Source: Arenibacter sp. ARW7G5Y1 (GTDB lineage Bacteria; Bacteroidota; Bacteroidia; Flavobacteriales; Flavobacteriaceae). From it: DNA of 64,000 bases. The DNA lies in contig NZ_QJJZ01000001.1 in assembly GCF_003201775.1 (NCBI RefSeq), positions 319,233 to 383,232 of the forward strand, in the 5' to 3' direction. Position 1 is the first letter of the stretch. Every line of letters starts with the position of its first letter. A program made the position numbers and the translations under genes. Of the stretch, positions 19,450 to 54,968 are shown in pieces. The notes beneath the pieces are model-generated. The model had not been told where the DNA came from, made no database searches, and saw only the letters and a list, made by a program, of their open reading frames with translations.

Positions 19450-19680
19450 TGGGAATTTTCTAAAGGGGTTGTAGCATTAAAAGCATTTGGCAGCAAGATA
19501 AGCTTATCCTATAATTTTTCAAAGATCGGTTGCCTCTGTGTAAAAGGAGGGGAACATAGGTATTTTATTTTTTTTGGAATATGGCATAAAATTGTTGAAA
19601 ATTTTAGTTAATTAGTGCTAGAGGCAAATTAAATATATTGATTTGTTAATCATTATGGTGTTGTTTCAACATATTTTTAT

Positions 19681-19704
19681 ATTTTCGTTAACGTTAACGA
19701 AAAT
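19681..19704. promoter_or_regulatory. 24-bp perfect palindrome, probable LacI operator 1
   Basis: ATTTTCGTTAAC is followed by its exact reverse complement. The 18-bp core TTCGTTAACGTTAACGAA recurs upstream of susC (30250-30267). The centre has the AACGTT/CG step typical of LacI-family sites. It lies 15 bp before the start of the first DUF1080 gene and overlaps a -7-like TATTTTCG (19680-19687), a placement that fits repression. The LacI gene at 24260 is the likely binder (inference). Confidence 0.8.
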
Positions 19705-19719
19705 TAATTTTTAAATGTT

Positions 19720-21102
19720 ATGATCAATAGAAAATTAACCAAGTCAATCTTGGTATTACTGCTTCATTTTGCTATTTGCAACTCTTTTGCCCAAGAAGGA
19801 TGGGAATCACTTTTAAATGGTAAGGATTTTTCCAATTTTGAACAACTGAACGGAAACGCAAAGTATAAAATTGAAAAAGGGGAAATGATCGGAACCTCTA
19901 GGCTGAATACCCCCAATAGTTTTATGGCCACTAAAAAGGCCTATGGCGATTTTATTTTGGAGTTTGATGTATTTGTTGAAAATGGACTTAATTCCGGAGT
20001 TCAATTTCGAAGCTTGAGCCTTCCCGAGTATATGGATGGTAGGGTGCATGGATATCAATGTGAAATTGAAACCAGTGATAGAAAATGGGCCGGTGGAATA
20101 TATGATGAGGCAAGAAGGGGATGGTTATATCCTTTGTCCAGAAATACCAAAGGACAAAATGCTTTTAAACCTGGGGAATGGAACCATTATAGAATTGAGG
20201 CCATAGGCAATAATATTAGAACTTGGATAAACGGGATACAATGTGCCAATCTGGTAGATGATGCTACGGCAAAAGGATTTATTGCTTTTCAGGTTCATTC
20301 CATACACGACCCTAGTTTGGAAGGCAAAATAGTGAAATGGAAGAATATTAGAATAAAAACATCCGACTTGGAAAAGGAACGGAGGCCGGTGGCGTTATAT
20401 GCCCCCGAAATAAGTTATCTGCAAAATCGGTTGACCCCAAATGAAGTTAGGAAAGGCTGGCGATTATTGTGGGATGGAGCCACTTCTGAAGGTTGGCGCG
20501 GTGCCAAACTAAGTGCGTTTCCAGATAAAGGTTGGATTATGGAAGACGGTGTACTAAGTGTTCTGTCGTCCGGAGGTGCGGAATCTAGAAATGGTGGGGA
20601 TATTGTGACAACGGAGGCTTTTAGCAATTTTGAATTAAGTATAGACTTTAAATTGACCAAAGGGGCCAATAGCGGCATTAAATATTTTGTTGATCCCAAT
20701 CTTAACATGGGTGAAGGTTCTGCCATTGGTCTGGAGTTTCAGGTGTTGGACGATAAGGAACATCCGGATGCCAAAAAAGGAAAAAATGGCAATAGGACCG
20801 TGGGATCCCTATACGATCTGATCCGCGCAGAAAATTTTGAAAATTCAAGAGGCAAGAACTTTAATGGGGTAGGTAAATGGAACAATGCCCGGATTGTTGT
20901 TAAGGGTGGACATGTTGAACATTGGCTCAATAATGTAAAGGTGGTGGAATACGACCGGTTTAGCCAGATGTTTAAGGCATTGGTGGAAAAAAGTAAGTAT
21001 GAAAAATGGGAAAACTTTGGAACGATCCCATCAGGGAGGATCCTATTGCAGGATCACGGGGACCATGTTTCCTTTAGAAGTATAAAAATTCGTGAGTTTT
21101 AA
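19720..21102 (+). CDS. Double DUF1080 protein (3-keto-glycoside hydrolase/lyase family)
   Basis: A 460-residue exported protein with a signal peptide (to about residue 24, ICNSFAQ) and two DUF1080 domains, roughly residues 28-213 and 243-460. Each is a LamG-like jelly roll with the family pattern [20 protein letters not shown] or [16 protein letters not shown], then NSGVQFRS or NSGIKYFV, then [20 protein letters not shown] or its weaker copy. DUF1080 proteins act on 3-keto-glycosides made by Gfo/Idh/MocA-type oxidoreductases, and such an oxidoreductase is the next gene. It is the first gene of the plus arm, directly behind operator 1. Whether both domains are active cannot be told here. Confidence 0.88.
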
Positions 21103-21130
21103 AATAGGTTCAATTCAAAACACTAAGATT

Positions 21131-22489
21131 ATGGGTGAAGGACGTAGAAATTTTATTAAAAAAACAGCATTGGCCTCAGGGGGAATAGCTTTGGGGGTCA
21201 ACTCTATGAGTGCTAAAAGTTACAGTAAGATCATTGGAGCCAATGACCGTGTAAGGGTAGGGATTGCGGGATTTTCCAATAGGGCCAAAGGGGCCTTGAT
21301 TCCGGCATTTTTGGGGCATCACAAAAAACAGAATTTTGAAATTGTGGGGGTTTCCGATATTTGGAACCGAAGAAGGGATGAAGGAGCGGCCTTCCTGAAG
21401 GAGAAAACTGGGGAAAAGATGAAGGTTTGGAGAAACCATGATGAAATGTATGATGAAAATAAAATTGATGCCGTTATAATTTCCACGCCAGATTTTCAAC
21501 ATGCCCTGCATACCGTGCAAGCGGCCAATGCCAAAAAGGATGTTTATGTAGAAAAACCCTTTGCCGAAACAATGGATGATGCAAGGGTTGGTAAAAAGGC
21601 GGTCCAGGATTCCGGAATTGTGTTTCAAATTGGTTCGCAAAGACGAAGTGGAAAGAATTACCACGCAGCCAACGATTATATTAAGTCCGGTAAATTTGGA
21701 GATATCGTAATGGTTGAAATGAGTTGGAATGTTAATCAACCGGACAGATGGCGCTTGCCAGAATTGACCGGTCAAATTAAGGAATCGGATACCGATTGGA
21801 AGCGTTATTTAATGAACAGGCCTTATGAGCCATGGGATCCCCGAAAGTACTTGGAGTATAGATTGTTTTGGCCATTTTCTTCCGGAATCCCCGGACAGTG
21901 GATGTCCCACCAGATTGATACCGTACATTGGTTTACGGGACTGAACCATCCAAGAAGTGTTGCTGCCAATGGAGGAATCTATCTTTGGAAAGATGGAAGA
22001 AAGAATTACGATACCATGACAGCTGTATTCGATTATGGCCCATTGGATGACCTTTCCAAAGGTTTCCAGGTAGTATATTCTTCCAGGTTTACCAATTCTG
22101 CAGGGGGTATCAAGGAAATTTATTATTCCAATGGAGGGGAATTAAACCTAGACACCAATAAAGTGAGCCCCAATGGTGGGTTAAAAGCTTCCCATGCCAA
22201 TAAAATGGGTATGCAGGAAAATCAATTGTCAGAATTTGATCTATCGGACAGTGCCGTTCAGGTGGTTACCTCTGCCGATACCGGTGCCGATAATATGACC
22301 TCAATGCATATGTTGAATTGGATGGAATGCGTGAGGAGCAGAAAGGAAACAAATGGTCCAATAGATGCAGCCTACAATCATTCCATTGCCAATATAATGA
22401 CCACCGCAGCCCTTAGGACGGGATTAAAATCCACTTTCGATGAGAAGGCTCAAGATGTTTTGGCGGGGGATAAGGTTTTCACGTATTAA
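21131..22489 (+). CDS. Tat-exported Gfo/Idh/MocA family oxidoreductase
   Basis: A 452-residue NAD(P)-type oxidoreductase. The N-terminus MGEGRRNFIKKTALASGG is a twin-arginine signal, so the enzyme is folded and loaded with cofactor before export. The Rossmann part begins DRVRVGIAGFSNR, the conserved EKP motif is at residues 141-143, and the C-terminal domain carries GQWMSHQIDTVHW. The start at 21131 is chosen because it puts the RR motif at the N-terminus and clears the previous stop at 21102; a longer frame from 21092 overlaps it. In context it probably oxidises the C3 hydroxyl of a glycoside to the 3-keto form, or acts in the reverse direction. This role is inferred. Confidence 0.9.
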   Translation: MGEGRRNFIKKTALASGGIALGVNSMSAKSYSKIIGANDRVRVGIAGFSNRAKGALIPAFLGHHKKQNFEIVGVSDIWNRRRDEGAAFLKEKTGEKMKVWRNHDEMYDENKIDAVIISTPDFQHALHTVQAANAKKDVYVEKPFAETMDDARVGKKAVQDSGIVFQIGSQRRSGKNYHAANDYIKSGKFGDIVMVEMSWNVNQPDRWRLPELTGQIKESDTDWKRYLMNRPYEPWDPRKYLEYRLFWPFSSGIPGQWMSHQIDTVHWFTGLNHPRSVAANGGIYLWKDGRKNYDTMTAVFDYGPLDDLSKGFQVVYSSRFTNSAGGIKEIYYSNGGELNLDTNKVSPNGGLKASHANKMGMQENQLSEFDLSDSAVQVVTSADTGADNMTSMHMLNWMECVRSRKETNGPIDAAYNHSIANIMTTAALRTGLKSTFDEKAQDVLAGDKVFTY

Positions 22490-22508
22490 TTTTAAAATCG
22501 ATAATGAT

Positions 22509-23573
22509 ATGAATAAAATAAATTTCAGTTATATACTCATTCTTATGGTGATTTCCTCCTGTAAGGATAAGGTGGAAAAGGGGAATGTTGCAGAACCTTC
22601 GCCAAAGATGGATCAGGTTACCTTTGTAACGGACGAAAAGAACAAAAAGGTAGATGTGTTAATAGATGGAGATTTGTTTACCAGTTATGTCTACGATGGT
22701 AAAACCCCCAAACCCGTTCTTTATCCGGTAATTACTAAAAGTGGTAATAAAATAACCAGGGGATTTCCCATAGAACCTGTAAAGGGGGAAAGGGTGGATC
22801 ATCCTCACCATGTTGGGATATGGTTTAATTATGGAGACGTAAACGGCTTGGATTTTTGGAACAATTCCTATGCCATAAAGGCGGAGGATAAACATAAATA
22901 CGGAACCATAAACCATCGGCAAATTGTAGAAGCCAATGCGGAAAAGGGCACCCTAATTGCCAAGGCTAGTTGGGATACATCGGACAATAAAAATCTATTG
23001 GAGGAAACAACGGAATTTGCCTTTAGCCAAGATGGGAATACTAGGAAAATTGTAAGAACCACTACCTTAAAAGCCTTGGAAGATGTATCCTTTAAGGATA
23101 ATAAAGAAGGAATGATCGCTATTCGGGTAACAAGGGGGCTGGAGCTTCCTTCCGATAAACCATCTATATTTATGGATGCCAACGGGATACCTACCGAAGT
23201 CGAGGCCTTGAACAATGAGGGTGTTAATGGGAATTATTTAACCAGTGAAGGAAAGACTGGTGAGGAAGCCTGGGGAACCCGGGCCAAATGGACTACTCTA
23301 TACGGTAAGGTAGATGAGGAGCCCGTTTCGGTGACCATAATGGATCATCCCAATAATGTTGGTTATCCTACCTATTGGCATGCCCGTGGTTACGGACTTT
23401 TTGCAGCTAATCCATTGGGACAAGAGGTGTTTTCGGAAGGAAAGGAAAAATTGAATTTCACTTTGGCCAAAGGGGAGTCCGTAACCTTCAAATATTCCAT
23501 CCTGGTTCACAACGGTGACCAATTGACACCAGATTCACTGAACGGATATTTTTCCGATTTTAGCGAAAATTAA
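22509..23573 (+). CDS. DUF6807 (PmoA-family) lipoprotein
   Basis: A 354-residue protein. The signal MNKINFSYILILMVISSC gives a lipid Cys18. The mature part belongs to the family annotated PmoA/DUF6807, recognised by RVDHPHHVGIWFNYGDVNGL, FWNN, and DHPNNVGYPTYWHARGYGLF near the C-terminus. The name comes from an old match to methane monooxygenase; it does not imply methane oxidation. Members sit in sugar-utilisation clusters beside DUF1080 and Gfo/Idh/MocA genes, and the repeated His-rich motifs suggest a catalytic or metal role. The start at 22509 leaves a 19-bp gap after the previous gene; a longer frame from 22440 overlaps it and hides the signal. Confidence 0.85.
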   Translation: MNKINFSYILILMVISSCKDKVEKGNVAEPSPKMDQVTFVTDEKNKKVDVLIDGDLFTSYVYDGKTPKPVLYPVITKSGNKITRGFPIEPVKGERVDHPHHVGIWFNYGDVNGLDFWNNSYAIKAEDKHKYGTINHRQIVEANAEKGTLIAKASWDTSDNKNLLEETTEFAFSQDGNTRKIVRTTTLKALEDVSFKDNKEGMIAIRVTRGLELPSDKPSIFMDANGIPTEVEALNNEGVNGNYLTSEGKTGEEAWGTRAKWTTLYGKVDEEPVSVTIMDHPNNVGYPTYWHARGYGLFAANPLGQEVFSEGKEKLNFTLAKGESVTFKYSILVHNGDQLTPDSLNGYFSDFSEN

Positions 23574-23583
23574 TACAGCGGCT

Positions 23584-24189
23584 ATGAAACATGCTATGGT
23601 TTTATTACTTTTTCTAACTTTTGGCACAAGTGGAATGTCCCAGGTTTTGGATAGGACAACCATGTACACCTTGTTTGATGGAAAAGCATTGGAGTCTTGG
23701 AAAATACCGGATGGAGGGGAATGGACAGTAAAAAAGGGTAAAATAATAGCCAAGAATAATCCTGGTAAAAAAGGTTCCATACTTTGGACCAATGAAAGTT
23801 ATAATGACTTTGTGGTACAGTTGGATTTTAAAATGATAAAGGGGAATATAGATTCTGGCATATTTATGCGGGGAGAGGATAAAAACAACCCACAGATCCA
23901 AATTGGAGTATCGGGCTCCCTTAAAAGGGATATGACCGGATCGCCTTACGTACCTGGTGCCGGTTATCCCGTGGAAGCGAAGAATATAAACAGATTACTC
24001 CGTTTAAAGGGGTGGAATACTATCAGGGCCCGTGCAGTGAACAATAAATACACCGTTTGGCTAAATGGAGAGGAAGTAATGAACTATACTTTGGATAATG
24101 CCAATTTGCAAGGCCCGATCGGAATCCAATTGCATCCGGGGAGGGAAATGGAAATACATTTTAAAAAAGTAGTTATAGGCAAGCTTTAA
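23584..24189 (+). CDS. Single-domain DUF1080 protein
   Basis: A 201-residue exported protein, signal peptide to about residue 20 (FGTSGMSQ), then one DUF1080 jelly-roll domain: TLFDGKALESWKIPDGGEWT, NDFVVQLDFKMIKGNIDSGI, GWNTIRARAVNNKYTVWLNG and GPIGIQLHPG. It is ten bases after the DUF6807 gene and part of the same operon. The family includes enzymes that cleave 3-keto-glucosides by elimination or hydrolysis. Having one single-domain and one double-domain member in the locus suggests different substrates or steps. Confidence 0.88.
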   Translation: MKHAMVLLLFLTFGTSGMSQVLDRTTMYTLFDGKALESWKIPDGGEWTVKKGKIIAKNNPGKKGSILWTNESYNDFVVQLDFKMIKGNIDSGIFMRGEDKNNPQIQIGVSGSLKRDMTGSPYVPGAGYPVEAKNINRLLRLKGWNTIRARAVNNKYTVWLNGEEVMNYTLDNANLQGPIGIQLHPGREMEIHFKKVVIGKL

Positions 24190-24259
24190 ACGGAATCAAG
24201 TTGTAATTTTAGCACCTTTTTGTAATGCCCTTACAATGTTAATCTAAGGAAGCTGGTCT

Positions 24260-25309
24260 ATGGACAATACTATTGGAATCAAACAAATTGCCAGACTTGC
24301 CAATGTCTCCATTGGTACGGTAGATAGGGTGTTGCATAATAGGCCTGGGGTGTCCAAAGCCACAAGGGACAAGATAAAGACTATCATCAAAGAGACCGGA
24401 TATAAAAAGAACACGGTGGCCAGTCGCCTTAATTTGGCAGGACGGAAGAAATTGAAAATAGCCGTGCTTATACCGGAGGTGTCCAGTAATTGGAGTTATT
24501 GGGAACTTCCTAAAAAAGGTATCGAGAAGGCTGTGGAGGAATTAAGTGAGATGGGCATTGTTGTTTCCTATTACTATTTTACAGATCCCTTCTCCTTTAT
24601 AGAAATGGGCGATGTTGTTTTGAATAAAAAATATGATGCCTTGGTGACGGTCCCATTTTTTATGGTGGAATGTAACAATCTTTTAAGTAAGGCCAAGGCC
24701 GAAAAAATGCCAGTGGTCTTTATGGATACAGAGATCAAATTGGACTATCCTTCTTATTTTATTCGCCAGAATTCACATAATGCCGGAAAGGTTGCCGGAA
24801 GGCTTTTACACGGGTTGGTAGGAACCGAAGGGCTCTATTCTGTTATCAATATAGTAACGGAAAGGGGATTACATGCCAATAATCAACAAAGGGAAAATGG
24901 CTTTAGGGAATTCTTTGCAACGAATTTCAAGGGTAAGCCAATCTCCATCATGACCATTAATCACCCAATAGATAGGCCTTTTGAAATTAATCCTGAAATA
25001 GAAGAATGGTTTAAGGATCCCAGACGAAAGGGAATTTTTGTTACCAATGCAAGATCTTATTTAATTCCAGGGATACTGAAAACCTATAACGTTTCCAATG
25101 TCTCAGTGGTGGGGTTTGATCTACACCATGATAATCTTGAATGTCTAAAAAAGCAGGAAATTAACTTTCTTATCAATCAAAAGCCGGAATATCAAGGATA
25201 TACCGCTATTAAGGGCATGTTCAAATATCTTACGGAACAGGACCCCTCAGATTTAAATATGGATGTCCCTGTAGAAATAATTGTACAGGAAAATTGCGAG
25301 TCTTTTTAA
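24260..25309 (+). CDS. LacI family transcriptional regulator
   Basis: A 349-residue regulator. Residues 6-55 form the LacI helix-turn-helix (GIKQIARLANVSIGTVDRVL and the hinge NTVASRLNLAGRKK). Residues 65-340 are a periplasmic-binding-protein-like sensor of the sugar-binding type (LKIAVLIPEVSSNWSYWELP, SVVGFDLHHDN). It is the last gene of the plus arm, 70 bp after the DUF1080 gene, and faces the susCD arm. The two identical palindrome cores at the outer ends of the locus are its expected operators; the inducer is probably a sugar released by the pathway. Both statements are inference from position. Confidence 0.92.
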   Translation: MDNTIGIKQIARLANVSIGTVDRVLHNRPGVSKATRDKIKTIIKETGYKKNTVASRLNLAGRKKLKIAVLIPEVSSNWSYWELPKKGIEKAVEELSEMGIVVSYYYFTDPFSFIEMGDVVLNKKYDALVTVPFFMVECNNLLSKAKAEKMPVVFMDTEIKLDYPSYFIRQNSHNAGKVAGRLLHGLVGTEGLYSVINIVTERGLHANNQQRENGFREFFATNFKGKPISIMTINHPIDRPFEINPEIEEWFKDPRRKGIFVTNARSYLIPGILKTYNVSNVSVVGFDLHHDNLECLKKQEINFLINQKPEYQGYTAIKGMFKYLTEQDPSDLNMDVPVEIIVQENCESF

Positions 25310-25372
25310 GTTCCAAGTTGGGAATAGGATTCAATTATTGCAATCCCACCTGCCCCCACTTCCATTAAAAAA

Positions 25373-25397
25373 AGGCCTCCATTAAATTTGGAGGCCT
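25373..25397 (-). terminator. Terminator of the susCD transcript
   Basis: AGGCCTCCA pairs with TGGAGGCCT across a short AT loop. Read on the minus strand, the stem is followed by a run of seven T. On the plus strand there is no T-run, so it mainly ends the susC-susD message. Confidence 0.8.
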
Positions 25398-25427
25398 CTA
25401 AACAAACTAAAATTAATTAACTAAAAA

Positions 25428-27092
25428 TTATTGTGGATAGCCTGGGTTTTGGGGATAACCTCCCAAAGTCCGGTCTATTTGTTCCTGTGGAATGGGCCTT
25501 AACACATGGTAATCCTGAATATTGGGCGCCGCAGTAGGATTATATAACCTAGTGCGCTCTACCAATTTTCCGGTTCTGGTCAAATCCCACCAGCGCCATC
25601 CTTCACCTATTAATTCACGTGCACGCTCATCTAAAATAAAATCTATATCAACATCACCAGCAGTAATTTCAATTGTAGCCTCTTGTCCGGGAACTGCCGA
25701 TCTTATCCGTACAACATTAATGTCATCGGCGGCACCGGGAGCATTATTTTGCTTTAACCTTGCTTCGGCACGCAATAAGTAGGCATCGGCCAAGCGCATT
25801 AAAATAAAATCGCGTTGCCCTTGTTCTTTCTGGCGATCGGGTCTAGTAGGGTCGATCCATTTGTTCATGGAAGGGAACAAACGTTCTGAATATTCGTCGT
25901 TTGTTATAGTAATATAGGGCTTCGTGTCCTGTCTAGATTGTGGCCAATCGATGTCTTTTCCAGGGCCAGGAATAAAAATAGCAGTATCGCCAATGGCCAA
26001 TGCCGCCCTTGCCGGTTCACCATTCTCCGGGTTTGCCGGTGTGGCAGGTTCATTTTTATTGGCATACCATACATGTTTAAATGATTTATCGTAACGCGTA
26101 TCTATATCCCTATCCCATAAACCTAGTGTAAAATCGGTAGGTCTAAATCTTTTCCAAGGTCTTCCATTCTCCGTATCTCGGGTCATTCCACGACGTACAT
26201 CGTATTCCTGTAGGAAATAAAGGTGCCCTCTATGTCCGTAGGGGTCAATTCCACTATCAACTTGTGACTTTGCATTAGTAACAACAAAGACCATTTCACT
26301 GTTTTCTTGGTTGTTAATATCCCATAAATCAGCAAAATCGTCCAAAAGTGAAAAACCATAATTGTTGATTACATTACTGAACAATGTTTCGGATCTTGAA
26401 GCGTCACTTCCTTCAGCAAATGATTTGTAGCTGCGGGTTAATAGCACTTTACCCAATAAAAACTCTGCCGCAGCCTTTGTAGCACGACCATAATCGGATT
26501 GCGAGTTGGGTAAGGTGGCTATAGCAAACTCGAGATCAGGAATGATGGCCTGGTTATAAATTTCTGCCTGAGGAGTTTTATTCGCTTCCACTTCTATCCC
26601 TTCTGTTTCCTCTAGACTAAGATGTGCATCCCCATAAGTGGTCACAATATTAAAGTAATAAAGAGCCCTTAGGAAACGCACCTCCGCTATACGCGAAGTT
26701 TTTTCCGCTTCATCCATTTCTATTCCGGCCGAACGGTTGATAACGCCATTGGCTTGGTTGATACCTCTGTACCAAGTGGCCCAGGCATCTCTTACCATTG
26801 AAGATGATGCGTTCAAACTGGTGTCATAGAAATTAAAAAATTTATGGCTACCATCCGCCCCATTATTATAAGTGTCCGTTCCGAAGACTGTCATTGTAAA
26901 GCCAATTTCCTGTCCATAAAAAGGTTTTAAGAGTGAATAAGTGGCATTCACGGCATCCTGAAAACCTTTTTCAGTTGTGTAATATGAAGCAGCCGAAACG
27001 TCTGTCACAAGCTCTTCTTCCAAAGATTTATCGCATGAATTGATTATGAACCCCAAGGTCAAAAACCAAATACAATATATTTTTCTTTTCAT
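25428..27092 (-). CDS. SusD/RagB family nutrient-binding lipoprotein
   Basis: A 554-residue outer-membrane lipoprotein. The signal MKRKIYCIWFLTLGFIINSC gives a lipid Cys20. Tetratricopeptide-like helices follow (TTEKGFQDAVNATYSLLKP, RIAEVRFLRALYYFNIVTTY), then the C-terminal SusD region with LRAEARLKQNNAPGAADDIN, ILDERARELIGEGWRWWDLT and RPIPQEQIDRT. It forms the lid that captures substrate for the SusC channel. A longer frame from 27146 overlaps the susC stop; the ATG at 27092 restores a normal signal and leaves 40 bp between the genes. The substrate cannot be told from sequence. Confidence 0.94.
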   Translation of the reverse strand: MKRKIYCIWFLTLGFIINSCDKSLEEELVTDVSAASYYTTEKGFQDAVNATYSLLKPFYGQEIGFTMTVFGTDTYNNGADGSHKFFNFYDTSLNASSSMVRDAWATWYRGINQANGVINRSAGIEMDEAEKTSRIAEVRFLRALYYFNIVTTYGDAHLSLEETEGIEVEANKTPQAEIYNQAIIPDLEFAIATLPNSQSDYGRATKAAAEFLLGKVLLTRSYKSFAEGSDASRSETLFSNVINNYGFSLLDDFADLWDINNQENSEMVFVVTNAKSQVDSGIDPYGHRGHLYFLQEYDVRRGMTRDTENGRPWKRFRPTDFTLGLWDRDIDTRYDKSFKHVWYANKNEPATPANPENGEPARAALAIGDTAIFIPGPGKDIDWPQSRQDTKPYITITNDEYSERLFPSMNKWIDPTRPDRQKEQGQRDFILMRLADAYLLRAEARLKQNNAPGAADDINVVRIRSAVPGQEATIEITAGDVDIDFILDERARELIGEGWRWWDLTRTGKLVERTRLYNPTAAPNIQDYHVLRPIPQEQIDRTLGGYPQNPGYPQ

Positions 27093-27132
27093 AATATTTT
27101 CAATTATCATTTTAATCTGATTTTTAAACTCC

Positions 27133-30100
27133 TTAAAACTTAGCACTCAAGCTCAATGAATACATTTTATTGCTTGGTACTATACCAGACCCCAAAGAGC
27201 CTGCATCTTCGGAAACTTCAGGGTCAAAAGTATCATAATTGGTAATGAACCACAGATTTTGACCGGCTATTGAAAGTTTTAGTTCTTCCATACCCAGTTT
27301 GTCAACAAATGAATCTGGAAGTTTATAACTCAAAGACACGTTTCTTAATTTAATAAAACTGCCATCAAAATATCGCAACGTAGATCCGTTTCTAGGACTC
27401 TCTTGATTTTCGTTGGGCCTAGGATTGGCATTGGTAGGATTATCTATGGTCCAGTAATCAACATCAAGGTTGTTGTATCTGGCAAACAAAGAGTTATTGC
27501 CCCCATGGAAGTCGGATTGTATGGTTTGTCCTTGTCGGAAGTAAAAGAAAACACCCAATTCCAAACCTTTATAAGAGAATTTGTTGGTTAAACCACCATA
27601 ATAATCAGGTGTGTCCGTTCCCAGTACCTTACGATCCTCTGGGGTAATAAGTCCATCCCCATCCAAATCATTAAGTCGAATCTCTCCGGGCACCTTTTGT
27701 TCCTGGGAAGTAGCCAAGGCCACTTCGTCCGCTTGGTAAATACCTATTTTTTCATAGTCATAGAAAACTTTGATCGGCTGACCAATAAACCAATTGTTAC
27801 CAATATCATCTATTGGATTGCCATTTTCGTCTTTTAAGGCCAGTTCAACAATCTCCTCAGTATAACCTGCTATGTTGAAATCCATTTTCCATGAAAATGC
27901 GTTTGGGTTGTCAAAAATTTTGGTACTGATGGCAAATTCAAGTCCCTTAGTACGTGTGGCACCAATATTCTGCAAAATACTACTGTATCCCGATGTAAAT
28001 GGGAGACTTCTATCTAGCAGGATGTCTACCGTATTGGTCTTAAACCAATCGATTGCACCATTGACACGACCATTGAATAAACCATAATCAACACCAATGT
28101 CCAAGGTTTTGGAAACTTCCCAGCCCAAATCTGGATTTGGAATTTCAGAAAGTGCCCTTCCAAGAGCATTGCCTTCGCCCCAAGCATAAACCGATGGGGC
28201 CAACCTACCTGCAGTTTGATAGGGCGCAACAGAGGTATTGCCCACTTCTCCATAGGATGCCCTCAACATTAACTGTGAGACAGACGATTCTTTCAAGAAA
28301 GCCTCTTCGGACAATCTCCAACCTAGGGAAGCCCCTGGAAAATAATTCCATTTGTTTCCTTCGGCCAATCTTGACGAGCCATCGGCCCTTAAGGAGGCTT
28401 GGAACAAATATTTGCCCGCAATATCATAATTTATTCTACCCATAAATGAGTTCAATGTCCATTCTGTCAATCTAGATTGAGCTAGGCTATTGTCTGCAGA
28501 ACCTAAATTATAAAAGGATTGCGACTCATATGGAATCCCTGTCACCGATGCAAGGGAATATTCGGTTTTGGAACTCTGGGTACTTTGTAGCAAGGTTACC
28601 TTCAAATTATGTTTATCGGCAATAGCCTTATCGTAGGTCAATAAGTTTTCAATGGTATATGCAAAGTTATCGGAATGTTCTATAGATGCATCACCTGGGC
28701 CACCACGGTTGTCATTGGTTAAACTACCTCTAAATTGACCTCTTCTGCCCAATCGGATATCAGGACCGAACAAAGTTCTCCACTGAAGACCTTCGGCAAT
28801 ATCTATATCTAAAAAAATGGGCGCAAAAATACGGGTCCACTTTCTTTCATCAATATAAGCTCCGTCTACCAGCTCGTTTAGCGGATTTGTTCGAATTCCA
28901 TCATTGGTAGGTAAAAATAATAGCTCACCATCAACATCATAGGGAACTCCTAACGGATTATTCGCCAATGCTTCACCAATAGTTGCATTAGATCCCCAAT
29001 TTTGTACGGAATTGGAAACCATAAAAGAGGCCCCTATTTTAAAAGTTTTGTTGATACGATGATCAATATTTAGCCTACCGGTAAATCTTTCATAGTCTTG
29101 ATTTTTGATTATTCCTTGTTCTTTAAAATAACCTATGGAAGAATTAAAGGTTGTATTTTCAGATCCCCCACTCACTCCTAACTGATGGTTGGTCTGGTAT
29201 CCATTGCCTACCACTAAATCTAGGTAATCCGTTGAACGGCCCATAGCCAAAGATTCTAGTTCTACAGGGTCAAAAAATACGGCGGCATCATCAGGTATCG
29301 TACCGTTCCATGAAGAACGTCTGGCCTCTCTCTTAAGAGCTGCATACTCTGCGCCGTTCATCATATCTACCAATTGTGCTGCGGATGTTAACCCGACTTG
29401 GCTACTGTATCGTACTTGGGTCTTTCCGACTTTACCACGGTTCGTGGTAACCAAAACCACCCCATTGGCTCCACGAGATCCGTAAACAGCCGTTGCTGCT
29501 GCATCTTTTAATATTTGCATGGATGCAATGTCCTGTGGATTGATATCGGACATGGATTCCGAACCGTCAATTAGTGGAATTCCATCCACCACATACAGTG
29601 GGTCATTTGATGCAGTAATAGAACGTCTTCCCCTAATCCGCACGGTTGAGGTTTGTCCCGGTCTTCCACCCGAAGCTTGGATGTCTACCCCGGAAATTTG
29701 CCCTTTAACGGCATCTATACTGCTCGAAGTCTGGACAATACCTAGTTGTTCGGCATCTACAGATGCAATGGCGGCAGTAACCTCTCCCTTCTTTTGAGTA
29801 CCGTAACCTACAACGACCACTTCGTCCAATAAGCTGGAATCGATTTCAAGGGAAGCGTTAACGGTAGTTTTGCCGTTTACGGCAATTTCTTTTGGTGTAA
29901 AACCAACATAACTGAATACCAATACACCATTTGAGGCAACATTTATTGTGTATTTGCCATCGAAATCTGCTACGGTACCTGTTGTAGTTCCCTTTACAAC
30001 AATACTGGCACCTGGTAAGGGCACACCGGAATCATCGGTCACCGTACCACTTACCTGCTGTTGTACAGTTAAGCCGGAATCCGCTTTGGCATGGGATGCG

Positions 30101-30204
30101 GTGAACATCCCCAGGCAGGACACCAAGCATAGTTGCAGGAAGATTTTCTTCCAAACAGGAACACCCTGAGGTGAATGAATTGCTTCATTAAATTGTTTTT
30201 TCAT
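27133..30204 (-). CDS. SusC/RagA family TonB-dependent outer-membrane transporter
   Basis: A 1023-residue importer. The signal region is long and basic (VWKKIFLQLCLVSCLGMFTA). Residues about 50-130 form the carboxypeptidase-D-like domain (VSGTVTDDSGVPLPGASIVV). A SusC-type segment VVVGYGTQKKGEVTAAIASV leads into the plug, then a 22-strand beta barrel ends with SNKMYSLSLSAKF. With SusD it moves oligosaccharides or glycosides across the outer membrane using TonB energy. It is first in the minus arm and lies 43 bp from operator 2. No anti-sigma/sigma pair accompanies it; control by LacI is more likely. Confidence 0.95.
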   Translation of the reverse strand: MKKQFNEAIHSPQGVPVWKKIFLQLCLVSCLGMFTASHAKADSGLTVQQQVSGTVTDDSGVPLPGASIVVKGTTTGTVADFDGKYTINVASNGVLVFSYVGFTPKEIAVNGKTTVNASLEIDSSLLDEVVVVGYGTQKKGEVTAAIASVDAEQLGIVQTSSSIDAVKGQISGVDIQASGGRPGQTSTVRIRGRRSITASNDPLYVVDGIPLIDGSESMSDINPQDIASMQILKDAAATAVYGSRGANGVVLVTTNRGKVGKTQVRYSSQVGLTSAAQLVDMMNGAEYAALKREARRSSWNGTIPDDAAVFFDPVELESLAMGRSTDYLDLVVGNGYQTNHQLGVSGGSENTTFNSSIGYFKEQGIIKNQDYERFTGRLNIDHRINKTFKIGASFMVSNSVQNWGSNATIGEALANNPLGVPYDVDGELLFLPTNDGIRTNPLNELVDGAYIDERKWTRIFAPIFLDIDIAEGLQWRTLFGPDIRLGRRGQFRGSLTNDNRGGPGDASIEHSDNFAYTIENLLTYDKAIADKHNLKVTLLQSTQSSKTEYSLASVTGIPYESQSFYNLGSADNSLAQSRLTEWTLNSFMGRINYDIAGKYLFQASLRADGSSRLAEGNKWNYFPGASLGWRLSEEAFLKESSVSQLMLRASYGEVGNTSVAPYQTAGRLAPSVYAWGEGNALGRALSEIPNPDLGWEVSKTLDIGVDYGLFNGRVNGAIDWFKTNTVDILLDRSLPFTSGYSSILQNIGATRTKGLEFAISTKIFDNPNAFSWKMDFNIAGYTEEIVELALKDENGNPIDDIGNNWFIGQPIKVFYDYEKIGIYQADEVALATSQEQKVPGEIRLNDLDGDGLITPEDRKVLGTDTPDYYGGLTNKFSYKGLELGVFFYFRQGQTIQSDFHGGNNSLFARYNNLDVDYWTIDNPTNANPRPNENQESPRNGSTLRYFDGSFIKLRNVSLSYKLPDSFVDKLGMEELKLSIAGQNLWFITNYDTFDPEVSEDAGSLGSGIVPSNKMYSLSLSAKF

Positions 30205-30247
30205 AATTAGAGTTTTGAGAGTTAGTTAAACATAAAACGTAACGTAT

Positions 30248-30269
30248 TATTCGTTAACGTTAACGAATA
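30248..30269. promoter_or_regulatory. 22-bp perfect palindrome, probable LacI operator 2
   Basis: TATTCGTTAAC is followed by its exact reverse complement. Eighteen central bases are identical to operator 1. On the minus strand it overlaps a -7-like TATATTCG (30264-30271), repeating the arrangement at operator 1. It lies 43 bp upstream of the susC ATG. Confidence 0.8.
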
Positions 30270-30651
30270 TAGTAATATATTCTATACATGTTATGATTTT
30301 TGTAAATTTTTCATGTTAAATATTGTAATTGCCCAATATATATGGGACTTTAATGAATAATTACTATTTATTAACATAAATTAACTTAAATTTTTAATTC
30401 GTAAAAAAGCAGGTAGTTTTGGGTGGAATGTATAGTGTTTACAGGCCCTGCGTAAGAAATGACATGTAGGAATAGTATGAATTTTATGGCACGTTGGCTA
30501 TGCCATAAATATAATTGGGCAAGGTTTTGTCTAAAAGCGGTATTTTTAGTTATATTCTGGGAATGAGGCGGTTAGAAGAGTTATTATAAATAATAATTTG
30601 TTGCCTATTTTGAAAAGGTACTCCTAAAAATTATTAGCTGGAGGAAAGTAA
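30270..30651. other. AT-rich intergenic region upstream of susC
   Basis: About 380 bp between operator 2 and the flavin oxidoreductase stop. It contains a hairpin, TTTATGGCA (30483-30491) with TGCCATAAA (30501-30509), whose right arm and loop share 15 bases with a hairpin at 54049-54063. No gene was found. Confidence 0.5.
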
Positions 30652-31707: not shown

Positions 31708-31753
31708 TAGTACATTTGAATTATTATGCATGCATAATAATTCAAATGTACTA
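31708..31753. promoter_or_regulatory. 46-bp perfect palindrome in a divergent promoter
   Basis: The left half starts TAGTACATTTGAATTATT and meets its exact reverse complement at ATGCAT in the centre (31728-31733). Each strand therefore carries TACATTTG, a full match to the -7 consensus TAnnTTTG: plus strand 31711-31718, minus strand 31743-31750. One element points to the thioesterase gene and the other to the flavin oxidoreductase gene. A 23-bp perfect arm is much longer than needed for a promoter and suggests an operator or a cruciform-forming site. Confidence 0.85.
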
Positions 31754-54140: not shown

Positions 54141-54968
54141 ATGAAAAAGATTTGCATTGTACTGGTTTTAATTTTTGGTTTTACTATCAATTCCCAGGTT
54201 CAACAGCTGGAAAATGAAGGGGAGGTCCACTTGCCTGAAAATAACGAAAACACATCTGCCTTTAAAATAGGGGAATGGTTAAAGTTTAGGATACATTATG
54301 GATTTCTAAATGCCAGTTACGCTACGCTTCAAGTAAAATCCCATGAATTGGACGGTGTTCCTGTCTATCACGTAGTAGGGAATGGTAAAACAACCGGTTT
54401 TGCCAGTATATTTTTTAAGGTAGATGACACCTATGAAAGCTATTTTGATAAAAAGGATGGCAAGCCCTATAAATTTATAAGAAAGATAGATGAAGGTGGA
54501 TATACCAAGGATATTGAGGTAAATTTTGACCACGAGAAGGATATTGCGGTATTAAACGATAAAAAAAAGGATAAAAAGTTTAATTTTACCATTCAAGAGG
54601 GTATTCAGGATTTGGTTTCGGCCTTTTATTTTCTCCGTAACAACTATAAAGTTGAAGAACTGGTTGAAGGGGAGTCCATAGAATTAAATCTTTTGTATGA
54701 TGATGATGGGGTTTTTAAGTTTAAACTTAAATACTTGGGCAAGGAGGTTTTAAGGACCAAGTACGGGAAGGTGGAATGTTTAAAGTTCAGGCCTTATGTG
54801 CAATCCGGAAGGGTGTTCAAGGAACAGGAAAGTTTGTCCCTTTGGGTCTCCAACGACGATAATAGAATTCCCATTAGGATACAGGCAGAATTGAGTGTTG
54901 GCTCCATAAAGGCGGATTTGGACGGATATAACGGACTTAAACATCAATTTAAAATAATAATGGATTAA
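54141..54968 (+). CDS. DUF3108 exported protein
   Basis: A 275-residue exported protein, signal peptide MKKICIVLVLIFGFTINSQ. The mature part has the DUF3108 pattern: EWLKFRIHYGFLNASYATLQ, HVVGNGKTTGFASIFFKVDD, TYESYFDKKDGKPYKFIRKI and a closing WVSNDDNRIPIRIQAELSVG. Members are thought to be periplasmic beta proteins related to the LolA-like fold; the exact function is unknown. It starts a compact operon: the stop is one base from the kynA ATG. Confidence 0.88.
   Translation: MKKICIVLVLIFGFTINSQVQQLENEGEVHLPENNENTSAFKIGEWLKFRIHYGFLNASYATLQVKSHELDGVPVYHVVGNGKTTGFASIFFKVDDTYESYFDKKDGKPYKFIRKIDEGGYTKDIEVNFDHEKDIAVLNDKKKDKKFNFTIQEGIQDLVSAFYFLRNNYKVEELVEGESIELNLLYDDDGVFKFKLKYLGKEVLRTKYGKVECLKFRPYVQSGRVFKEQESLSLWVSNDDNRIPIRIQAELSVGSIKADLDGYNGLKHQFKIIMD

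Follow-up and report, generated by a model that had tools for sequence, protein, structure and literature searches.

LacI-family regulators of sugar use couple an HTH domain with a periplasmic-binding-protein domain, bind CG-centred even palindromes before sugar genes and lie inside their own regulons (PMC4052901, available part). Among the 1303 TFs compiled there, the operator is an even palindrome for 1251 and has a CG centre for 1173, and 72% of the LacI TFs are autoregulated. The Arenibacter locus described here resembles them in all these respects, the last one by prediction. The Bacteroidetes are covered in that source by one taxonomic group, Bacteroides, and its available part does not hold the Arenibacter regulator, motif or gene set.

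Hexuronate catabolism in the Bacteroidetes is under LacI-family control by the Bacteroides UxuR, UxaR, KdgR and UxmR, whose regulons are, judged from the available part of PMC3878776, the closest published ones. The likeness drawn here is one of function. Unlike them, the predicted Arenibacter regulon adds a 3-keto-glycoside operon and a SusCD pair.

The other related system is the 3-keto-glycoside pathway, in which a DUF1080 protein and a sugar 3-dehydrogenase are likewise encoded together, and BT2157, a DUF1080 protein, is a 3-ketotrehalose hydrolase (PMC9007349). A link of this pathway to uronate genes was not found in the available part of that paper. Moreover, PMC3878776 (available part) gives BT2160, the regulator in B. 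thetaiotaomicron, as SusR4 and not LacI, whereas the regulator here is LacI. Our dehydrogenase also differs from the B. thetaiotaomicron-type glycoside 3-dehydrogenase, scoring 94.6 bits with the NCBIfam equivalog BT_2158_fam, under the curated cut-off of 750. BT2160 presumably adjoins BT2157.

Full-text searches (main texts, few subscription papers) gave no match for LacI, glucuronate, TRAP transporter and SusCD in Flavobacteri, or for DUF1080, glucuronate and TonB-dependent. Judged by title, nothing on this regulon is among the matches listed for the string TTAACGTTAA or in the Arenibacter LacI literature. The LacI mechanism is ordinary and the regulon apparently new; what is new is that hexuronate use is predicted to be coupled to 3-keto-glycoside cleavage.

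The window is the whole 64-kb stretch of DNA that was analysed, and the locus occupies the following positions of it.

19680-19687, plus strand: TATTTTCG, -7-like element fused to operator 1, one change from TAnnTTTG
19681-19704, unstranded: putative operator 1, a 24-bp perfect palindrome with the 18-mer TTCGTTAACGTTAACGAA at 19684-19701, preceding the DUF1080/Gfo/DUF6807/DUF1080/lacI row
19720-21102, plus strand: 'kdhA', two-domain DUF1080 / 3-keto-disaccharide hydrolase family (Pfam PF06439, two stretches)
21131-22489, plus strand: Gfo/Idh/MocA dehydrogenase, candidate glycoside 3-dehydrogenase (PF01408, PF22725; Tat-like RRNFIKK start, by eye)
22509-23573, plus strand: DUF6807 protein (PF14100)
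23584-24189, plus strand: single-domain DUF1080 protein (PF06439)
24260-25309, plus strand: LacI-family regulator, HTH and Peripla_BP_4 (PF00356, PF13407), final gene of the putative operon
25371-25399, minus strand: terminator-like hairpin and T-run between the convergent lacI and susD
25428-27146, minus strand: SusD-family lipoprotein (PF07980, PF14322)
27133-30204, minus strand: SusC/RagA TonB-dependent transporter (TIGR04056, 862 bits)
30248-30269, unstranded: putative operator 2, a 22-bp perfect palindrome with the 18-mer TTCGTTAACGTTAACGAA at 30250-30267, preceding susCD
30264-30271, minus strand: TATATTCG, -7-like element fused to operator 2, running 30271-30264

We give a probability of roughly 87% to the reading that the LacI encoded at 24260-25309 has the palindrome as its operator and would repress one regulon for uronic-acid-linked glycoside use. 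The initial annotation had described the arrangement correctly: one 18-mer at both places within longer perfect palindromes, TAnnTTCG overlapping each, the LacI gene in between and no full core elsewhere in the window. It had also placed each site just upstream of its arm's first gene, and indeed the distance is 18 bp from the end of site 1 to the kdhA ATG (19720) and 45 bp from site 2 to the SusC ATG (30204, minus strand). Its proposal that one regulator switches import and breakdown together is supported by the conservation and co-occurrence below but was incomplete, as the predicted regulon extends past the locus to a TRAP transporter by uxuA and a distant Gfo/Idh/MocA dehydrogenase. That the LacI protein itself is the switch we infer from the sequence.

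A CG-centred 18-mer within palindromes of 24 and 22 bp has the form of a LacI-family operator, an even palindrome of 16-22 nt with a central CG (PMC4052901). Allowing up to 3 mismatches, TTCGTTAACGTTAACGAA has exactly two matches in the 64 kb, while 0.04 are expected from 100 dinucleotide-preserving shuffles. In the entire own genome, the full 18-mer occurs without mismatch only as the window pair. The window holds four perfect 18-bp palindromes, the operator pair and two others, where 200 Markov shuffles average 0.425, and none of these shuffles of the window has an identical palindrome twice. The two others, at 31722-31739 and 54714-54731, are unrelated in sequence.

The -7 consensus is TAnnTTTG (PMC2483708, available part), so the TTCG form is one change away. 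A clear -33 TTTG was not seen at the sites by eye. Over several genera, 18 of 21 rows of the kdh arm and 13 of 17 of the SusC arm have an operator with a fused TAnnTTCG box; one SusC row (G184) is scored as a miss, though its adjacent tandem copy overlaps such a box. The distance from site to start is 15-190 bp in the 21 kdh rows and 28-366 bp in the 17 SusC rows.

The regulator belongs to the LacI family by its N-terminal HTH (PF00356) and C-terminal sugar-binding domain (PF13407), both above the cut-offs, and 3gbv is a solved relative. Pfam shows no other regulator among the genes scanned at the window locus. Its gene starts 70 bp past the second DUF1080 gene and is the last co-directional one downstream of operator 1. 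The 251 bp of the lacI/susD junction have two terminator-like sites against a mean of 0.6 in shuffles. From the gene order, the strands and the hairpin, operator 1 precedes the row ending in lacI and operator 2 precedes susCD. The membership of lacI in the operon and its autoregulation are both inferred.

The hinge of this LacI (ASRLxLA, residues about 50-66) is two residues longer in all 29 aligned ortholog rows than in the 10 paralogs aligned with them, which are 33-38% identical (ASTL--A, for example). The alignment covers L004-L019 and L100-L111, where L018 and L101 are the same genome. The insertion is possibly a marker of this LacI clade.

The Arenibacter locus set consists of the window and 11 named loci, whose LacI proteins are 72-91% identical to ours. 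Since these loci and the genus genomes coincide where coordinates were compared (for example, L006 is G299 and L014 is G302), their counts must not be summed. The conservation in relatives that the initial annotation had called for is found. On the kdh arm, the 18-mer is identical in 12/12 loci (the aligner's own tally of 17/18 columns comes from its splitting one site base), against 28 invariant columns among the other 232 of the non-coding upstream region.

On the SusC arm, SusCD is present at the locus in 8/12 Arenibacter loci and each has the site, with 0, 0, 0, 0, 1, 1, 3 and 3 mismatches; the invariant columns there are 15/18 in the site versus 57/232 outside. The four loci without SusCD (L008, L009, L011 and L012) have no second site at up to 4 mismatches. 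Where SusC is at the same place, it is 69-95% identical. This variability and the absence of SusC from 4/12 loci suggest transporter exchange under a fixed operator.

Farther out, the SusC-arm site is kept with 0 or 1 mismatch in all three Sinomicrobium loci (LacI 56-66% identical; locus L018 is genome G297), and kdhA is absent within the fetched stretch of these loci. Other genera (LacI 56-59%) contribute nine kdh-arm and six SusC-arm rows with sites of 0-3 mismatches. Among these kdh rows, the first gene is Gfo in G075, and G094 has a site and a kdhA/Gfo pair away from lacI. DUF6807 is found by Pfam in 3/3 other-genus loci examined. The flanks differ while the site persists at orthologous promoters in several genera.

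Two kinds of variation of the site were seen. Tandem operators, 21 bp from start to start, occur at L106:16213-16251 and L017:9856-9894 in different genera. Hybrid half-sites occur in G050, G075, L017 and L019.

Within the genus, a LacI ortholog (72-100% identity) is encoded in 12 of 18 genomes, and the exact 18-mer is present in 12/12 of these LacI-positive genomes versus 0/6 of the LacI-negative ones. One LacI-negative genome (G309) has an 18-mer match with 2 mismatches. The two groups may be two clades, so that the genus tables may record one event.

Across the family, 14 of 299 genomes encode an ortholog (E<=1e-112, at least 52% identity), the next protein being 41% identical (G228) and the rest at most 38%. 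At up to 1 mismatch, the 18-mer occurs in 9/14 LacI-positive versus 2/285 LacI-negative genomes (Fisher p=2e-12), and the exact 14-mer CGTTAACGTTAACG occurs in 10/14 versus 8/285 (p=3e-11), both p values being optimistic because family genomes are related. By count of printed rows, the reversed 14-mer control has no LacI link (4/14 versus 41/285, p=0.14), and the reversed 18-mer is in 0/14 LacI-positive genomes. By the same count, these reversed strings are commoner overall, in 16/299 versus 11 genomes for the 18-mer and 45/299 versus 18 for the 14-mer.

The placement also differs with LacI. The 14-mer is intergenic at 21 of 22 sites in the LacI-positive genomes, eight of the 22 coming from one genome (G184, the eighth being the C4 site, locus L096), versus 1 of 10 in the LacI-negative ones, where the intergenic site is that of G248 and the other nine fall within ORFs. 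Both LacI-negative genomes with an 18-mer match (G059 and G096) have it inside an ORF. Two LacI-positive genomes, G152 and G094, show no recognisable site in the 10 kb or so around lacI, the latter having unlinked sites, and the ortholog in G119 goes with a variant palindrome 4 mismatches away.

The co-occurrence bears on the alternative that another regulator travelling with the locus owns the palindrome and the neighbouring LacI works elsewhere. Binding to the palindrome is read from sequence, a 35% identical LacI paralog in G180 stands beside TTCGTGTACGTACACGAA, a palindrome related to the site, and points away from a short-chain dehydrogenase gene (by eye, a mannonate oxidoreductase), and a GntR gene adjoins a related site in G228. 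Against it, LacI is the sole regulator among the locus genes scanned, and the site goes with the LacI ortholog across the family (p=2e-12). In addition, 5/6 LacI-negative Arenibacter genomes encode LacI paralogs (E<=1e-40) and none of them has the exact site. Hence, we regard another owner as improbable and keep LacI as the predicted repressor.

The 12-mer core GTTAACGTTAAC has four copies in the own genome, the window pair and two outside the window (C13 and C10). The C13 copy precedes the distant Gfo/Idh/MocA ORF by 189 bp, measured to the first start codon; this Gfo scores 149.9 bits with BT_2158_fam, also under the cut-off of 750. The C10 copy lies 14 bp upstream of dctP, in the gap between uxuA and the DctPQM TRAP transporter genes. 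The copies are thus few and not before unrelated genes, against which the initial annotation had wished its idea to be judged. We rejected the copy number as evidence, because reversed controls occur at least as often. The reversed 12-mer also has four copies in this genome, so the placement and the conservation are the evidence and the count is not.

At both distant targets, only the inner 12-14 bp of the operator are retained; the -7 overlap is established for the two arms of the locus. The uxuA, dctP, dctQ and dctM genes are consecutive in 18/18 genus genomes, and the 14-mer is in the uxuA/dctP gap of 12/12 LacI-positive versus 0/6 LacI-negative Arenibacter. DctP is 87-100% identical to the query in the former versus 78-81% in the latter, which is why the two groups may be separate clades. 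The distant Gfo (E<=1e-150) is encoded in exactly the 12 LacI-positive genus genomes, all with GTTAACGTTAAC upstream. The TRAP and UxuA calls come from Pfam/NCBIfam in one genome (L080) and from similarity to it elsewhere. A mannonate oxidoreductase precedes uxuA in L080, and the stretch from the own genome covers uxuA.

The genus has 14 distant matches with up to 2 mismatches, 13 of which were examined: five are before dctP, four before the distant gfo, three in ORFs and one (L083) without an assignable target. The fourteenth is in the LacI-negative G309. UxaC was rejected as an Arenibacter regulon member, because the 400 bp ahead of it are free of the site in 18/18 genomes. The solved chain closest to DctP is 4n8y, and we take 4n8y, 4x8r, 4ovr, 4mhf and 4mij to be uronate-bound structures.

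In other genera, the uronate genes come closer. In six of the nine other-genus kdh-arm loci (L103 and L105-L109), UxaC and kdhA point away from each other on either side of the operator, which makes the uronate link direct. UxaC is called a glucuronate isomerase by Pfam in L106, and the other five are 66-73% identical to that one. The next genes after UxaC in L109 are those of DctP, DctQ and DctM. The place of UxaC is taken by an integrase-like protein (by eye) in L104 and by an alpha-L-fucosidase family gene in L110.

In G119, the LacI ortholog (58-59%) adjoins a dctM-dctQ-dctP-uxaC-uxuA-mannonate oxidoreductase row, and the perfect CG-centred palindrome TTCGTGTACGTACACGAA is about 100 bp ahead of its first gene. 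G184 has one site ahead of mannonate oxidoreductase-uxuA and another ahead of a SusC-type gene. A side observation comes from G228 (L112:9897-10958), where the gene of the 41%-identical LacI is broken by a stop and a 2-mismatch site persists before UxaC, beside the GntR gene.

The predicted mechanism is as follows. A LacI dimer would sit on the CG-centred palindrome, and since the -7-like element shares its last four bases with the start of the operator at both window promoters, the bound LacI should block RNA polymerase at both. The inducer releasing LacI would be a sugar intermediate, for which a 3-keto sugar or a hexuronate is the likeliest choice. The release would turn on the SusCD import and the DUF1080/Gfo/DUF6807 operon, including lacI as its final gene for autoregulation. 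It would also turn on the distant Gfo/Idh/MocA dehydrogenase and the DctPQM TRAP transporter beside uxuA.

Some LacI-family proteins are activators, and two identical sites flank the locus, so LacI might bind to activate or to loop between the sites 10.5 kb apart. The position of the sites is that of local repression instead, each overlapping the -7-like box of its own gene near the start. Looping is further at odds with the 4/12 Arenibacter loci that have one site only and with the unlinked sites in the same genome. Activation or looping has little chance in our judgement, and local repression is preferred.

An origin of the pair by chance, or as a mobile palindromic repeat, is hardly credible: the two unrelated palindromes in the window, the 14-mer copies within genes of LacI-negative genomes and the reversed control strings being no rarer would fit it, but no shuffle repeats a palindrome, the only four core copies in the own genome are each ahead of a pathway gene as read here, and orthologous promoters are conserved in several genera despite differing flanks.

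The substrate is less certain than the repressor. The encoding of DUF1080 and Gfo/Idh/MocA proteins together marks, by family, a 3-keto-glycoside cleavage locus. From the gene set under the operator, the regulon most likely serves a uronic-acid-linked glycoside, which would be oxidised at C3 and cleaved, followed by hexuronate uptake and degradation. Less certainly, the cut would go via a 3-keto intermediate, because the DUF1080 family includes the 3-ketotrehalose hydrolase and hexuronate genes share the operator.

A broader proposal is tentative, and we would put it somewhat below an even bet. It is that the Flavobacteriia have a dedicated oxidative route for uronic-acid-linked glycosides made of SusCD import, C3 oxidation by Gfo/Idh/MocA enzymes, DUF1080 cleavage in place of a classical glucuronidase and TRAP uptake of the hexuronate, all under one LacI repressor with its operator fused to the -7 box. 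If true, the 3-keto-glycoside pathway would be extended to uronides and the DUF6807 family would gain a pathway.

Usually annotated apart, an orphan SusCD pair, a DUF1080/Gfo/DUF6807 enzyme set and a TRAP transporter whose genes adjoin hexuronate genes now form one predicted regulon. With its operator and regulator defined, the substrate question becomes testable. The motif can also be used to find further pathway members, for example a ThuA/Gfo pair with the same core in two genera. In G184 and G037, the 14-mer is located between divergent ThuA-family and Gfo/Idh/MocA genes (L187:1063-3849 and L190:1060-3688).
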